From Gerris lacustris (lineage: Eukaryota > Arthropoda > Insecta > Hemiptera > Gerridae), in assembly GCA_951217055.1 (NCBI GenBank), contig OX578284.1, forward strand, positions 31,274,187 to 31,338,186: 64,000 nucleotides of DNA, read 5' to 3'. Positions 5,061-62,180 of the stretch are shown here, piece by piece (position 1 is the stretch's first letter; the number at the start of each line of letters is the position of its first letter). A program made the position numbers and the translations under genes. A model generated the notes under the pieces. The model was not told the DNA's origin, did no database searches, and was given only the letters and a program-made list of their open reading frames with translations.

Positions 5061-5484
5061 AGTACCACTAAAAACATTTTTTTCTTGAAAAAAAAAATGA
5101 AATCATCATTAAACCACTCCTACTCTGCTATGATTTAGTAAAGTTTGCAAAAATCATCTAAAAAAATCTTTGCGAAATAACAGACCTAATTTTATAGAAT
5201 CTAACAAAAAAAACCTTTAAAAGATAAATGATATCTAGGGTAAACCCAATGAATGAGATTCTAAAAAACAAAACAAAATCTAGTATGAAAAGCATATCAG
5301 GTGGTCTCGAAAAAAAAGAGCATGGGAGATTTCACAACGGGAGTACAAGGCCTATTATACTTTATACCAAGCTTCCTCTAGCACTTACTATTCTTATTTT
5401 AAAATCCACTTCATACTCATTAACTTAAATCATGTTCGTTTCCGTGTTCCAAGACTCAATTTGAAAATTGCTATAATAATGATT

Positions 5485-6103: not shown

Positions 6104-6265
6104 GGGGGCTGGTGTAGCTGAGTAGTTAGTGTACTTGGAACTCCACCTGTACCAATGTTTAATCACCGACAAATCTGGTTAGTTCGATTGCTACAGAGGT
6201 GAGATTTGCCACACTGATGATCCACATTCCTAAAATAGTCTAATGATGTGTTGATCAAGTCGTAA
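6104..6265 (+). repeat. SINE-like element with tRNA-derived head
   Basis: The run GGTGTAGCTGAGTAGTTAG (6111-6129) is a good tRNA D-arm/box A resemblance, and GGTTAGTTCGATTGC (6178-6192) resembles a box B with one inserted step. The ~60-base spacing is slightly long for a tRNA. The following body to about 6265 shares no clear sequence with the element at 5485. Likely a decayed SINE. Confidence 0.45.
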
Positions 6266-9315: not shown

Positions 9316-9733
9316 TCGGTAAAGCAAACTGTCATCACAGGAAGATCAGCTACCTTATCCATTATTAGCTTGGAACTTATTTCAACTCTCTAGAAATACA
9401 ACCAGAATCATATTTATTATTTTGTCGGTAATTTACTAAAACAACGAATTTGCAAATGACCTAAGTTGAGATTACTGCCTTTTACAGTTAGACAAGATCA
9501 AAAATCAGATAATTCAATATCACTTCAATAAAAATATGTATATGAATAAATATTAGTTTTGAAGTATTTTTGACTAACTAATAATAAATACATATTTTTC
9601 AACTTTGAAAGGCATTTAATCCCAAGGAAACGCTTTGTGTTTAGTTCCCCACTAAAAGTGGGTACCAAAGTAAAATAGGAGACATGAGGCAATACTTAAG
9701 ATGAGTAGCCCCAATCTTAATACCTACCATAAG
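9316..9733. other. AT-rich DNA without recognised genes
   Basis: No gene seen. The part from about 9640 (AGTTCCCCACTAAAAGTGGG) shows a weak local inverted repeat next to the element at 9734 and may belong to a larger decayed element. Confidence 0.4.
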
Positions 9734-9894
9734 TATTAAGACAAAGGAATATTTAGTTCAAAGTACTTTGGGACAAAGGAGTATTTCACTTCTGTTTATA
9801 AAAGTTATAATGTCCATTAGTCTAATTAAATATTCAGACAATGCGATCCTTTGTCCAAAAGTGCTTTGGACTAAGTATCCCTTTGTCTTAATAG
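9734..9894. mobile_element. small inverted-repeat element (MITE-like)
   Basis: The ends are imperfect inverted repeats of nearly 50 bases. The left arm reads TATTAAGACAAAGGAATATT, then AGTTCAAAGTACTTTGGGAC. The right arm, reverse-complemented, reads TATTAAGACAAAGGGATACT, then AGTCCAAAGCACTTTTGGAC. Total length is about 160 bp and there is no coding capacity. Half-copies with the same arm occur at 15612-15660 and 21805-21850. This pattern is typical of non-autonomous DNA transposons; the superfamily is not identified. Confidence 0.65.
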
Positions 9895-10980: not shown

Positions 10981-11420
10981 TCTCTAGGCCACTGCCTCTT
11001 CAGACGTATTGGATAGGAGTTGTATAAGAGGATTTGGATATCAGAATAAGGATTCATGGAATTTTCAACATTGGGATTCGAATAGCTTTCGGACAAAAGG
11101 AACATTCAGGTCTTAATGGAGTGCCGGATGGAAACATAGTATAAGGAGCATCTAAGATATCTAAGGATTTTTGACTGTAGGATTAGGAGACGAAGGAATG
11201 GCTTGGTGCTGCCTCACAGGTGAGACTACATTATAGATGTAAAGCTTTTTTTTAGAGAAATCTCAGAAATTTCGATCCAGAAGACCAAGCAGTAACATAA
11301 ACGGACGTTTGTTTTAGTGTGTCGTTGCCATGTTAATCGACGGTAAGGCCAAGGATGGAGTTGTACTTGAATGGGAGCTTAATTAAGGATGACTGAAGGA
11401 CACGTGCTATAATTCTGAAT
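10981..11420. other. G-rich, skewed island without recognised gene
   Basis: Compared with its surroundings this stretch is richer in G+C and clearly favours G over C on the plus strand (GGA and AGG words throughout). C-richer sequence appears only further right, at 11740-11960 and 12160-12280. No conserved motif or long frame. It belongs to the set of skew islands discussed in the findings. Confidence 0.4.
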
Positions 11421-12334
11421 TTAAATCACATATAATCTAATTTAAAGAATCTATTATTAAACATGCTTATAAAGTATTCAATAGATGGTGATTTTCAATT
11501 AAATTTCGATTTTAATTCGACTCAAATTTATTTTTAATCATAATCAAAGAAACTAAATCTTTCCTATAAATACTTTATTTTAATAATAATAATTTTAGAT
11601 TTATATAGGCAACCTCTCTAATATTTTGATAATATTAGTTAAATTGGTACGATTTCATGTTCCAAATTAAATTGGGAGGAGTTTTAATTGCGATAAATAT
11701 GAATCTTGTTCTAAGCTTTCTAATTAAATGGTAATAACCGGGCTTCTCATTCTGAATCTCATATTGGCATATCTTGTCTGTTAAATCTCCACAACATCAC
11801 TTGTAAAGCGATGTGTTTCAAAGGTTTTACTATTGTGATTCCATCTTCTATATAATTATAATAGGCCCGTCTTGATATAATAATAGTATAATAATATTAT
11901 AACGGTCTTTGCACACATAGATTTCCAGCTTTCTCCTCTCATCTCCTAGAGAATAACGGTTGACGTTAAAATTAACACTATGAAACGGCTGAGATATTCT
12001 TCTTTTCTTTTTACTATGTGAGAATTAAATAGAATAGAAAAAAAAAGAATTAATACGCGAATAGAAGAAGGCTAGGATCAGAGAAAACTCTTGGCTTCGA
12101 CTAATTGGGACTCTAATGAACTTTTGTAGTTTAGGAAATTATAATTAGTGGGTGTTTGAGGTTCCTATCACGCAATCTTGACTCCTTTTCTTCTTTACAG
12201 AGCTATAAGGTTTGGCTTCTATGCTACGCGCACGGAGCACGGTTCTTTTACCTCCGTAAATTCCTAGTTCTCCCACCTTGTTGCTTTTTATAAAAAAAAA
12301 AAAAATGTATGCTAATACTTTTACAGTCCACATA
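11421..12334. other. AT-rich DNA without recognised genes
   Basis: No gene supported. A 64-codon minus-strand frame at 12145-12339 has no recognisable motif and ends in a poly-F run encoded by poly-T/A. Confidence 0.5.
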
Positions 12335-12547
12335 AGCAAAAATATCTCTTTTTGAAGGCCTCTTGCCTCTTTTATTTATATCAAAAAGTTATCTTTTTCA
12401 TAAAAAATATGTGTTCGACATTTAAACAGCATTGAATAGAGTTCATTTCTACTTTTAAAAACATTTCTTACAGCTGTAAATATATTCAACGCAAAACAGG
12501 TTTTTTATTTTTAAAAAAAAAACTTTATAGAATAGATTTTTTTTTTC

Positions 12548-12552
<5 letters not shown>

Positions 12553-12600
<48 letters not shown>
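12553..12600. repeat. (TA)n microsatellite
   Basis: Uninterrupted AT dinucleotides directly abut the first satellite unit. The matching tract in the second block is 13919-13942. Confidence 0.95.
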
Positions 12601-12603
<3 letters not shown>

Positions 12604-12906
12604 CAATGTAATACCGTGTTTTTGCACACTGCAATAAGGTACACAATTTGTGTAGTGAGAGACACCAAGGGATGTGCCACGCACTCGTGACACATAGGAA
12701 CTGTTCCAACATTAGACTATACGTCACAAAGATGTTGGCTCGGCATTACGCCATGTCCTGCATCGTTTCGTCGCGTCCGACTCATCAGGGGCCCGACGAT
12801 GCCCACCCAACTCTGGACCTATACCAACTCAAGAAGATCAGGTATAGGCTTTATCAGAGACGAGCGTGCTCTCCACCGCCATTCTTGCTTGGCTGGCAAA
12901 ACAAAT
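12601..12906 (-). repeat. 306-bp hammerhead satellite, unit 1
   Basis: First full copy of a 306-bp unit. Compared base by base with unit 2 (12907-13212), I see one difference (G at 12652, A at 12958). The unit is far richer in G+C than its flanks. Read on the minus strand, it contains a full hammerhead ribozyme core (listed separately) and, just upstream of it in the RNA, an 8-bp hairpin CCTATACC / GGTATAGG (12818-12825 with 12841-12848). An 89-codon plus-strand frame repeats with the unit and resembles no family I know. Size and content fit the retrozyme class of non-autonomous retroelements, known in animals at roughly 170-400 nt. Confidence 0.85.
12760..12802 (-). ncRNA. hammerhead ribozyme (unit 1)
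   Basis: Minus-strand order: stem III strand GCATCGT (12802-12796), cleavage-site C (12795), GGGCCC (12794-12789), core CTGATGA (12788-12782), stem II GTCG / loop GACG / CGAC (12781-12770), then GAAAC beginning the other stem III strand ACGATGC (12766-12760). All invariant core bases of the family are present: CUGANGA, GAAA, and UH at the cleavage site. Stem II is a perfect 4 bp and stem III a perfect 7 bp. Predicted cleavage is after C at 12795. Within one unit, stem I has only GGGCCC to form from; pairing with the next unit's GGGCCC would give 6 bp. The match is too specific for chance; activity is untested. Confidence 0.88.
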
Positions 12907-13212
12907 CAGCAATGTAATACCGTGTTTTTGCACACTGCAATAAGGTACACAATTTGTATAGTGAGAGACACCAAGGGATGTGCCACGCACTCGTGACACA
13001 TAGGAACTGTTCCAACATTAGACTATACGTCACAAAGATGTTGGCTCGGCATTACGCCATGTCCTGCATCGTTTCGTCGCGTCCGACTCATCAGGGGCCC
13101 GACGATGCCCACCCAACTCTGGACCTATACCAACTCAAGAAGATCAGGTATAGGCTTTATCAGAGACGAGCGTGCTCTCCACCGCCATTCTTGCTTGGCT
13201 GGCAAAACAAAT
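12907..13212 (-). repeat. 306-bp hammerhead satellite, unit 2
   Basis: Second full copy, head-to-tail with unit 1 and exactly 306 bp on. It carries the same ribozyme and the same internal hairpin. On the minus strand, the interval between the two predicted cleavage sites (13100 down to 12795) is a complete 306-nt monomer. Confidence 0.85.
13066..13108 (-). ncRNA. hammerhead ribozyme (unit 2)
   Basis: Identical to the ribozyme of unit 1. Stem III strands are 13108-13102 and 13072-13066, cleavage-site C at 13101, GGGCCC at 13100-13095, CTGATGA at 13094-13088, stem II 13087-13076. Its catalytic core together with the substrate strand of unit 1 (12802-12789) can form a two-unit hammerhead in which stem I is GGGCCC paired with GGGCCC. 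Confidence 0.88.
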
Positions 13213-13400
13213 CAGCAATGTAATACCGTGTTTTTGCACACTGCAATAAGGTACACAATTTGTGTAGTGAGAGACACCAAGGGATGTGCCACGCACTCGT
13301 GACACATAGGAACTGTTTCAACATTAGACTATACGTCACAAAGATGTTGGCTCGGCATTTCGCCATGTCCTGCATCGTTTCGTCGCGTCCGACTCATCAG
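13213..13400 (-). repeat. truncated satellite unit 3
   Basis: Matches the first 188 bases of the unit, with C-to-T at 13318 and ATTACG changed to ATTTCG near 13360. It stops exactly at the outer edge of the ribozyme core CTGATGA. It keeps CTGATGA, stem II, GAAA and one stem III strand (13372-13400) but lacks GGGCCC, the cleavage site and the partner stem III strand. It may supply a catalytic strand in trans but cannot cleave itself. Confidence 0.8.
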
Positions 13401-13445
13401 TGTCACGAGTGCGTGGCACATCCCTTGGTGTCTCTCACTACACAA

Positions 13446-13450
<5 letters not shown>
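13255..13450. repeat. perfect 50-bp inverted repeat around the half ribozyme
   Basis: Left arm 13255-13304 and right arm 13401-13450 are exact reverse complements over 50 bases. The loop is 96 bases and contains the truncated ribozyme half. The left arm is normal satellite sequence; the right arm is an inverted copy of it joined to the core at 13400/13401. Block 2 has the same arrangement (13985-14034 and 14131-14174, with a 6-base deletion in the right arm). Confidence 0.9.

Positions 13451-13527
<77 letters not shown>
13450..13527. repeat. (TA)n microsatellite
   Basis: About 77 bases of TA repeat abut the right inverted arm. The counterpart in block 2 is 14174-14227. Confidence 0.95.
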
Positions 13528-13528
<1 letters not shown>

Positions 13529-13700
13529 TGAAAAAATATTAATTTTTTTCTCACATTTTATTCATAAATTGTAGGTAATTTAAATTTGCTTATTTTACTT
13601 CTGCTTATTCATTAAAGTTATTAATCTAAAAGCTTGCACAGTTAATATGTTTTGTTTATTGTAACATTAATTTGACTATTTAATTTAGTCTGTACTTTCT

Positions 13701-14169
13701 AGCAAAAATATCTCTTTTTGAAGGCCTCTTGCCTCTTTTATTTATATCAAAAAGTTATCTTTTTCATAAAAAATATGTGTTCGACATTTAAACAGCATTG
13801 AATAGAGTTCATTTCTACTTTTAAAAACATTTCTTACAGCTGTAAATATATTCAACGCAAAACAGGTTTTTTATTTTTAAAAAAAAAACTTTATAGAATA
13901 GATTTTTTTTTTCTGTAAATATATATATATATATATATATATCAGCAATGTAATACCGTGTTTTTGCACACTGCAATAAGGTACACAATTTGTGTAGTGA
14001 GAGACACCAAGGGATGTGCCACGCACTCGTGACACATAGGAACTGTTCCAACATTAGACTATACGTCACAAAGATGTTGGCTCGGCATTTCGCCATGTCC
14101 TGCATCGTTTCGTCGCGTCCGACTCATCAGTGTCACGAGTGCGTGGCACATCCCTTGGTGTCTACACAA

Positions 14170-14228
<59 letters not shown>

Positions 14229-14402
14229 TGAAAAAATATTAATTTTTTTCTCACATTTTATTCATAAATTGTAGGTAATTTAAATTTGCTTATTTTACTT
14301 CTGCTTATTCATTAAAGTTATTAATCTAAAAGCTTGCACAGTTAATATGTTTTGTTTATTGTAACATTAATTTGACTATTTAATTTAGTCTGTACTTTCT
14401 AG
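13701..14402. repeat. tandem duplication block 2
   Basis: Second, shorter copy of the block at 12335-13700, ending TGTACTTTCTAG. It contains (TA)n at 13919-13942, one truncated satellite unit 13943-14130, the inverted arm 14131-14174 and (TA)n 14174-14227. The CTAG end recalls Helitron termini but no 3' hairpin precedes it, so that reading is not supported. Confidence 0.85.
13943..14130 (-). repeat. truncated satellite unit with half hammerhead
   Basis: Same extent as unit 3 in block 1 and the same ATTTCG variant, showing the two truncated units share a common ancestor. Ribozyme half at 14102-14130 keeps CTGATGA, stem II and GAAA but lacks the cleavage-site strand. Inverted arms of 50 and 44 bases flank the loop. 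Confidence 0.8.
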
Positions 14403-33314: not shown

Positions 33315-33590
33315 ACTCTGTTAGTTTTATAATAGTTAATTATTAAGCCTAGATTGTTCTTATAAAAGTTATTGGGAACTTCAAATATATCTTATAAAAG
33401 TTCTTTAGAATAGTTAGATTGTTCTAATAATAGTTAATTTTTATACCTAGATTGTTATACAAAAGTTATTTGTGAACTTTAAATATATCTTAGAAAAGTT
33501 CTTTAGAAAAGTTAGACTGTTCTAATAATAGTTAATTTTTAAGCCTAGATTGTTCTTATATAAGTTCATCGTTATACCTATTTTGCTTGT
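33315..33590 (+). repeat. 98-bp tandem repeat, ~2.7 copies
   Basis: AATAGTTAAT starts at 33331, 33429 and 33527, giving a regular 98-base step. Each unit contains CCTAGATTGTT, AAAAGTTATT, AAATATATCTTA and AAAAGTTCTTTAGAA. The copies are about 90% alike by eye. Confidence 0.85.
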
Positions 33591-34239: not shown

Positions 34240-34925
34240 ATATTTATTTGTTAGTTCGTTATACAAATATGAGAAATAAATATGGACATTAAAACAACAA
34301 TATTACATTTGTTAGATGTTTTTTTATTCACATAAGACACATTATATGGTCATTCAAACAAAATTATTACATAATGTCTGTTAGTTTGTTGTACACATAA
34401 GACAAATATGGACATTAAAACAACAATTTTATATTTGTGTGTTAATTTATCATAAAATAAAACACTTATGGGCATTAGAGCAACATTATTACATTTGCTA
34501 GTTTGTTATACACATAAGACAAGTATGAGCATTCAAACAACAACAGTATTACATATGTCTATTAGTTTGTTACTCACTCATATGAATTATAATATAGGCA
34601 TTCAAAATGTTATATGTATCATATTTCGCAATTAGTTTGTGTTAAGCCCATAAGTAAAACATGAGCTCTAACAATTAGAAGTCATAACATATGTGTCAAT
34701 TACTCTGTTAATACACTTACAAAACTAAAACATATTAATCAGTTTGTGATAATATTACAAAATAATATTTTCGGTTAATTTTTTATATAAATAAGAAAAA
34801 TATAGGTATTTAATCTGTTAGCCGGATTATATTATTTGTCAGTTACTTTGTTAAGCATATATATGTATTAAAAAATGTTGGTTAAACAGTTAGAACTCAT
34901 TAATCAGTTACTCTGTTGTAAAGAT
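34240..34925 (+). repeat. degenerate ~60-75-bp minisatellite
   Basis: Recurring words are TTAGTTTGTTATACACATAA, GACAAATATGGACATTAAAA, CAACAATATTACATTTG and variants, at least eight diverged copies. The first half is the best preserved (34300-34560); copies after 34600 are recognisable mainly by TTAGTTTGT and ACATATG. Confidence 0.75.
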
Positions 34926-60383: not shown

Positions 60384-60733
60384 AGCCTAGGTGTTCCGGA
60401 TCTAGACTTCTAAATGTAGATATTCCTAATCTTTACTTCTAGACCTAGATCTTTCGAATGTAGACTTCTAGACCTAGGTCTTCTGTATCTAGACTTCTAA
60501 ATGTAGATATTCCTAATCTTTACTTCTATAGACTTAGATCTTCCCGATCTAGACTCTAGACCTAGATCATTCGAATGTAGGCTTCTAGACCTAGGTCTTC
60601 CGCATCTAGACTTCTAAATGTAGATATTCCTAATCTTTACTTCTATAGACTTAGATCTTCCCGATCTAGACTCTAGACCTAGATCTTTCGAATGTAGGCT
60701 TCTAGACCTAGGTCTTCCGGATCTAGACTGCTA
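60384..60733 (+). repeat. CTAG/GATC-rich minisatellite with higher-order period
   Basis: Built from ~15-18-base units of the type GATCTAGACTTCTA and GACCTAGGTCTTC, full of TCTAGA, CCTAGG and AGATCT palindromes. A higher-order unit is marked by CTTCTAAATGTAGATATTCC at 60407, 60494 and 60611 (steps of 87 and 117; the longer has an extra ~30 bases with CTTAGATCTTCCCGATCTAG). The last two long units are almost identical. Many self-complementary words allow cruciforms. Confidence 0.9.
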
Positions 60734-62180
60734 GATAAAAGAAGATCGCATCAAAGACTTTGTAAATATCGATGATTATCAATTGTGGTTCACAAAATTA
60801 GTCACATTTTTCTCCAGAAGATTTAAAATTATTAGAATTTGACCACGAAGCCCAAAGTTATAAACAGTTAATGTAAAATTTTAGTGTTATTAAATCTTCT
60901 GAGAAAATTTTACCATCTTCATTTAACTCCAAATTCAGTTCAAATGAGAACTATGTTGTAGATTAATTTTCTACAGATGTTCACTAATTTAAGATTTCTT
61001 TTGAACAGAAACATATAGAAAGTTTTTTTTTGTAATAATTGATTATAAGCTATTTGCGAGAATAGCGATTGTTTTGTGGAATTTCATTTGATTTGGTTAA
61101 TGAGGAATCTATCAATAAGAATGTCTCTCGAAGTCAAAAATTAAATGATCTTAGAAAAATTTAAGTTGAAGTTAAATGGTTTTTTTAAATAGTTTAATAG
61201 AGTAGTTGAAAGAATTTACAGAGAGCAAGAAGGAAGTAATGATTGTAAAAACATTTAAATTAAGCACCCAGGAAATAAAATAGTCCTAATTAGGTTTAAA
61301 ATCTAAAATCCGATGACTATTTCATGTTTCGGAAATAATAATTAACTTTCTTGTAGCTTCAAAGAATTTACATTTTAAATTTCTGGAGAAGTTGGTGGAT
61401 TATAAAATTAAATTTTGGTAGGTAGTTGTAAAACTTTGGTTTTTCCTAAAGATAGTAAAGGATGAAGTCAACAAATTCATTGCCTAAGATCAATCTTATT
61501 GGGATATAATTGTTGATTACTGGGTATTAATAAATAAATACCTTTTAATTTTAAATATTTCTTACTATATTTTGATTATACAGTAGTATTATAATACATT
61601 GTTATGTAGCTTATTATACATTTCTACTTAGTTCTTCAAAGTTTTAGATACATTTCAAATCTATTTGACTTACAGTTGAGTTATTACAGAAGTAAGTAAG
61701 ACGGTTTTATGTGTTACCTTTCCAACACACTGATTCCCCTTGATATTTATCTAATACTTGATTAATTAAAACTAATTTAGTCTTATTTCCATAAATATAT
61801 GTAAATAAATGTACTAATTAAGAGTTTTCTCAACTCATATATATATATGCAGTTGAAAATAAAGTAATCATTATTAAAATTATATAGTAAATAAAACCAT
61901 GGTAGAATCAATAATATGTTTACTCCTGGCGTGCTCTGGCAAAAACCACTGGCAAACACTCTTTCACAGTATTTTTACCAAAGAAGAGATTTGTAAATTG
62001 TACAATTCTTTATAACTTATTTAAAATAAATGAAAAGTGAGGCAATTAAATTGATTTAGTGATAATCGCGACAAAGTTATAAAATTAGTTGTTTCTACAG
62101 AGATTATATTAAACTTATTTACTTAAAGTGAATTAAACTTAGACCATAATAGTTATTTAAGACTTTAATAACTCATCCAT
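60734..62180. other. AT-rich DNA without recognised genes
   Basis: No gene or repeat family recognised. Confidence 0.5.

Follow-up and report, generated by a model that had tools for sequence, protein, structure and literature searches.

The window analysed here, a stretch of DNA 64 kb in length, contains a short tandem array of a 306-bp unit whose minus strand carries a hammerhead ribozyme motif. The locus is present in two adjacent copies and is made up of the following elements:

12600..12905, minus strand (the sense of the ribozyme): 306-bp unit 1 of the tandem array
12906..13211, minus strand: 306-bp unit 2, with one difference from unit 1 (unit nucleotide 53)
13212..13400, minus strand: partial unit 3, unit nucleotides 1-189; weak RF00008 match (20.7 bits, E 0.48)
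13942..14130, minus strand: partial unit of the second locus copy, with the same breakpoint as unit 3; weak RF00008 match (20.7 bits, E 0.48)
13400..13450, unstranded: fold-back, an inverted copy of unit nucleotides 44-94 abutting partial unit 3 (blastn, 100% over 51 nt)
14130..14173, unstranded: the corresponding fold-back in the second locus copy, carrying a small deletion (blastn, 100% over 34 nt)
12548..12600, unstranded: (TA)n to the left of the array
13450..13526, unstranded: (TA)n to the right of the array
14174..14226, unstranded: (TA)n to the right of the second locus copy
12335..14402, unstranded: tandem duplication of the locus with its flanks (12335-13700 and 13701-14402), the flanks being 100% identical over 214 and 176 bp

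No further copies of the unit were found in the window, where blastn returned a single extra match (13 nt, E 0.51). The first copy of the locus holds 2.6 units and the second 0.6; the duplication may be recent and accompanied by unequal exchange, or the assembler may have set two haplotypes one after the other. The partial units end at unit nucleotide 189, which lies at the edge of the CUGAUGA core; the inverted unit nucleotides 94-44 follow, with one base shared between the two segments. The first of them (13212-13400) retains CUGAUGA, stem II and GAAA and is devoid of GGGCCC, the cleavage site and the 5' strand of stem III; the cleavage half is also missing from the second (13942-14130).

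In the 64 kb, two open frames have at least 120 codons. Protein searches returned no match for the open frame that crosses the 306-bp unit and, at E 0.01, none for two other open frames of the window. Among the 10 open frames (out of 51) that were compared with Pfam, three had weak matches, all under the family cut-offs, and seven had none. With no tRNA gene in the window either, the genome is probably eukaryotic. The observed/expected ratios are 0.86 for CpG and 1.02 for TpG, without a marked TpG excess, a composition that would argue against a heavily methylated genome such as that of a plant or a vertebrate but points to no particular group. An animal host, as assumed in the preliminary description, is possible but unproven. 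The window has other repeats as well: a CTAGA-rich array of units of about 29 bp, which can also be read as 88 and 117 bp (60386-60735), and two neighbouring AT-rich minisatellites with nested periods of 33/98 and 60/117 bp (33327-33566 and 34246-34572).

At the sequence level the hammerhead motif is certain. On the minus strand, both full units present GCAUCGU, the C that precedes the cleavage site, GGGCCC, CUGAUGA, the stem II segment GUCG-GACG-CGAC, GAA and ACGAUGC. No core base is missing (CUGANGA, GAAA and, where cleavage is predicted, U16.1-H17). The 4 bp of stem II and the 7 bp of stem III are intact and perfect, and stem III opens to the remainder of the unit, which corresponds to the type III order. 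The positions are:

12760..12802, minus strand: hammerhead motif 1, type III order, stem I loopless (RF00008, 42.6 bits)
13066..13108, minus strand: hammerhead motif 2, identical to motif 1 (RF00008, 42.6 bits)
12789..12794, minus strand: GGGCCC, the self-complementary stem I strand of motif 1 (sequence and cofold)
13095..13100, minus strand: GGGCCC of motif 2 (sequence; the cofold was done on the identical motif 1)
between 12795 and 12794, minus strand: predicted cleavage of motif 1
between 13101 and 13100, minus strand: predicted cleavage of motif 2

The preliminary description of this DNA had placed a minus-strand hammerhead in two 306-bp units, with a complete invariant core, perfect stems II and III and cleavage after the C at 12795. 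The sequence of both units agrees with it, the motifs running from 12802 to 12760 and from 13108 to 13066, and the predicted cleavage position is right.

The Rfam model RF00008 (Hammerhead_3) matched both motifs in cmscan with 42.6 bits (E = 2.9e-7 in 3 kb and 6.2e-6 over the whole window). The gathering cut-off of this family is 48.5, so that Rfam at its gathering thresholds leaves the motif unreported and a permissive search is needed. The covariance search, which the preliminary description had proposed as a check, thus supports the motif by its E value and falls short of the threshold by its score. The type III scan, which requires the core, stem II and stem III and treats stem I as optional, picks out two motifs in the window, whereas 60 Markov windows of the same 64 kb length yield none; a reduced core pattern occurs four times in the window, always in copies of the 306-bp repeat, and in 0 of 100 dinucleotide shuffles. 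Apart from the score under the gathering cut-off, which would suit it, a chance resemblance to a hammerhead is contradicted by the E value and by these controls and is very improbable, as the preliminary description had claimed.

The motif departs from the standard type III hammerheads in its stem I. Between the cleavage site and CUGAUGA there are only six bases, GGGCCC, and no loop I; for that reason, a capped stem I is unable to form in one copy, and a single motif has stems II and III without stem I. Since it has no normal stem I in cis, the motif would be filed as a variant hammerhead working in pairs and not as a standard type III member. The preliminary description was correct in reading a minus-strand hammerhead in a tandem repeat, but it did not mention the missing cis stem I, with which the predicted mechanism becomes that of a dimer. 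The sequence being without loop I, the tertiary contact between loops I and II is also missing, and this counts against the dimer reading.

The predicted folds bear on how such a motif could work. The best fold of a single motif (-13.7 kcal/mol) is not a hammerhead. For two motifs, the best structure proposed by RNAcofold is a double hammerhead (-39.1 vs 2 x -13.7 kcal/mol) in which the stems III are exchanged (7+7 bp), both stems II are formed and one 6-bp stem I is shared. When GGGCCC was replaced by random 6-mers, the double hammerhead was obtained in 0 of 300 cases. As 6 bp is the usual length of stem I in type III (PMC7936874), the shared stem counts for the dimer reading. For a minus-strand RNA of 389 nt that contains the two motifs, the unconstrained fold has -137.6 kcal/mol, the double hammerhead -132.4 and a fold in which stems II and III are forced in cis -127.5, the stem I region of the latter being taken up by pairs other than the hammerhead stem I. 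The double hammerhead is therefore 4.9 kcal/mol better than the cis-forced fold, which counts for the dimer, and 5.2 kcal/mol worse than the unconstrained one, which counts against it. According to these predictions, the dimer is favoured over the cis form in this transcript, yet a competing fold is better still, and activity would depend on co-transcriptional folding.

One alternative is a hammerhead acting as a monomer, with cleavage in cis and a stem I of one base pair, a G-C pair closing a GGCC loop. Such a structure is compatible with intact stems II and III. Nevertheless, its -9.2 kcal/mol falls 4.5 kcal/mol short of the best monomer fold and 2.2 kcal/mol short of the same motif with stem I open (-11.4 kcal/mol), which makes this explanation improbable.

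In the mechanism that we propose instead, two motifs, either neighbours in a multimeric transcript or located on separate RNAs, would pair their GGGCCC into a shared 6-bp stem I and swap their stem III strands, and two hammerhead cores would result. Each core would cut after its C (12795 and 13101), and a two-unit minus-strand transcript would release one free 306-nt monomer (13100 to 12795). Since hammerheads without a helix I loop have found wide use in trans, and since a type III motif deprived of one loop still cuts, albeit at about 1 per minute versus over 100 (PMC6155905), a capless stem I is chemically acceptable. The sequence, the motif, the array and the predicted pairing are what the analysis shows; cleavage, the dimerisation of the motifs in the cell, a circular RNA and retrotransposition are what we infer. 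Besides the missing loop contact and the competing fold, the RF00008 score below the cut-off counts against this dimer reading, as does the presence of just two full copies, which are identical in the motif and for that reason make a covariation test impossible. On balance, the chances seem even that this locus is a 306-bp retrozyme-like tandem repeat whose minus-strand hammerhead of type III order acts as a dimer. With somewhat less confidence, and only tentatively, we propose the more specific hypothesis of an obligately dimeric type III hammerhead that has a six-base palindrome in place of a capped stem I and belongs to a retrozyme-like element able to process itself only when multimeric or concentrated.

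The motif was compared with 48 viral loci fetched by the core pattern, and thus picked by pattern and not a random sample, and with two prokaryote loci (461,927 bases scanned). The type III scan gave 12 rows, which correspond to 11 motifs in nine loci after an alternative reading in L002 was dropped: three in L002 and the others in L003, L006, L014, L016, L022, L023, L025 and L031. These comparators share the core and stems II and III with the motif of the repeat but, contrary to its capless stem I, all 11 have a looped stem I arm, which is 16-32 nt long and pairs over 6-7 bp. All of them except L022 (10/11) form stem I when folded as monomers. When two motifs are paired, the energy gained amounts to -5.2 kcal/mol in nine comparators, -6.6 in L022, -10.8 in L006 and -11.7 here; L006 has a long stem I arm that is able to pair in trans, and its gain counts against the dimer reading. 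On the 12 viral loci submitted to cmscan, including all nine with the 11 motifs, Hammerhead_3 is listed for five of the comparators: the three of L002 (46.7, 43.0 and 37.2 bits), L031 (41.2 bits) and, weakly, L022 (E 0.94), the E value being below 0.001 in four of them. The capped viral motifs of L002 and L031 are likewise under the Rfam cut-off. Up to E 5, cmscan gave no Hammerhead_3 for L003, L006, L014, L016, L023 and L025; by the scan, which is the only basis for these six, they have a complete type III core and three helices. No other loopless type III motif was found in the 48 viral loci or in two further pattern scans of viral contigs. The collections hold viral and prokaryote DNA, so this absence says little on eukaryotes. 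The two prokaryote loci, selected for a GGGCCC-CTGATGAG pattern, had no Rfam match up to E 0.5 and look like chance.

Several of the viral loci carry more than one ribozyme-like match. L002 has its three similar type III hammerheads on one strand within about 2 kb (9729-9785, 11223-11279 and 11694-11750), all of them below the Rfam cut-off. A type II match (RF02276) lies less than 1 kb downstream of the type III motif in three loci: L006 (plus strand, motif at 5361, match at 6181-6249, 46.9 bits), L016 (minus strand, 555, 284-220, 41.1 bits) and L022 (plus strand, 5168, 5384-5450, 31.5 bits, below the cut-off). In L014 (minus strand), the type III motif at 2804 is less than 1 kb from a match to an HDV-type ribozyme (RF02682) at 3500-3429 that has 43.1 bits for a cut-off of 44.

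The dimer reading has two chief rivals: a dead copy from which the loop was deleted, and a repeat that owes its spread to DNA recombination only. According to the former, the active members of the family would have an ordinary stem I hairpin and the locus would have amplified a unit that lost the loop, is dead or very weak and retains GGGCCC as a remnant. The universal stem I arm of the comparators is consistent with this scenario, as are the Rfam alignment, from which the stem I loop positions are missing, the near-identity of the two full units, which suggests one founder, and the partial units without the cleavage half at the same locus. Yet, the supposed remnant is perfectly palindromic over 6 nt, the length that stem I usually has, while a random 6-mer is palindromic in 1/64 of cases, and the core and stems II and III are intact at every base. 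A decayed copy is a serious possibility, but less likely than not.

Helix sharing through a palindrome, on which the dimer reading depends, has precedents in the literature. Dimeric hammerheads with an elongated helix III have been described (PMC6155905, PMC3088659). The dimers of a newt satellite and of viroids (PMC6155905) and those proposed for Aedes and others (PMC3088659) combine a palindrome with a shared helix, as would be the case here, and the dimeric hammerheads of Penelope-like elements may do likewise. Nevertheless, the newt, viroid and Aedes dimers share helix III (PMC6155905, PMC3088659), whereas helix I would be shared in the present repeat: its stem III is not the weak palindromic one of those dimers but has 7 bp, and the palindrome is in stem I. 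The hammerhead of the repeat therefore looks like a mirror-image variant of the stem-III dimers. No type III dimer formed via helix I was found in the literature searched, which covered few subscription papers, and type III motifs are reported to cut well as monomers (PMC6155905). In PMC7761336, PMC7936874 and PMC6155905, type III is mostly reported from plants and their circular RNAs, but also from prokaryotes, phages, the HDV-like RNAs of a toad and a termite, dipteran genomes and, in discontinuous form, mammalian Clec2 genes. The termite, toad and dipteran hammerheads resemble the present one in being of type III in animal-associated sequences, but their helices I and II are longer than usual (PMC7936874) and a pseudoknot links loops 1 and 2, in contrast to the six-base stem I found here.

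If both sites were cut, the transcript would yield the following RNA:

12795..13100, minus strand: predicted 306-nt monomer RNA with its 5' end at 13100 and its 3' end at 12795 (deduced from the two cleavage sites; predicted circular fold)

Folded as a circle, this monomer is predicted to pair 66% of its bases and is more stable than all 100 shuffles (z = -2.5), which counts for the dimer reading, though its complement comes close, with a z of -2.2 and 2 of 100 shuffles reaching its stability. The monomer could correspond to a unit-length circular RNA, as expected of retrozymes, which is how the preliminary description had interpreted the repeat. Its size and tandem form speak for that interpretation, while its type III order is at odds with the type I hammerheads of the published animal retrozymes, whose units have about 170-400 nt (PMC7229834, also the source of the other data on animal retrozymes below). 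Like the non-LTR retrozymes of animals, some of whose hammerheads are dimeric, the repeat has tandem units with one hammerhead per unit, and its 306 bp, in two full and two partial copies, lie within the range of about 150-450 bp. Unlike theirs, its hammerhead follows the type III order; its stem III is strong and its stem I capless. The amphibian retrozymes that require dimers have a very weak stem III, again contrary to the strong one found here, and the 49% GC of the unit is near or above the limits given for animal retrozymes (<50% or <45%, depending on the passage). Conversely, the type III order and a unit bounded by two hammerheads are shared with the LTR retrozymes of plants. Yet the hammerheads of the latter are 600-1000 bp apart and their LTRs come with a primer-binding site and a polypurine tract (PMC7761336), whereas the repeat has a 306-bp unit and a capless stem I. 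The size of the unit and the lack of any match to a tRNA-Met primer-binding site in the array led us to reject a plant LTR retrozyme. Overall, the retrozyme interpretation is plausible but unproven.

The modes of spread have to be weighed separately. In the second of the two chief rivals, the repeat would be borne by satellite or microsatellite DNA and spread by DNA recombination only, the hammerhead, active or not, being unused for mobility. This scenario fits either reading of the ribozyme, so its probability overlaps with those of the others. It accounts for a locus that is itself tandemly duplicated, its flanks being 100% identical and its two copies differing in the number of units, as unequal exchange or a false haplotype duplication would give. 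The (TA)n flanks mask any target-site duplication at the array, no tRNA gene was found in the window, and the 24 matches to the tRNA-Met primer-binding site (up to 3 mismatches) compare with 25.9 expected by chance, 0 being inside the array. The left junction reads TATATA/TCAGC at the edge of the array versus AAACAAA/TCAGC inside it and is away from the cleavage site; the array therefore does not look like the end-to-end insertion of a full-length linear monomer, and this left end counts against the dimer reading. On the other hand, a unit of 49% GC in a window of 28% GC is what an inserted foreign element would produce, and only 6 nt separate the breakpoint of the fold-back (unit nucleotide 189) from the site of predicted cleavage (195/196), where the cleaved RNA would have its 5' end. 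A cDNA snap-back near that end could be its source, although this was a single event copied once and the proximity is no more than suggestive. Spread by recombination only is therefore a serious possibility, to which we nonetheless give less than even weight.

If the repeat cuts as predicted, hammerheads could be made to depend on dimers via stem I as well as via stem III. Such dependence would then be a recurrent means of cutting multimeric transcripts while leaving monomers and circles uncut, and small tandem-repeat elements would include ribozymes of type III besides those of type I. A motif search that insists on a loop at stem I would overlook elements of this kind, in the same way as the Rfam cut-off misses the present repeat.
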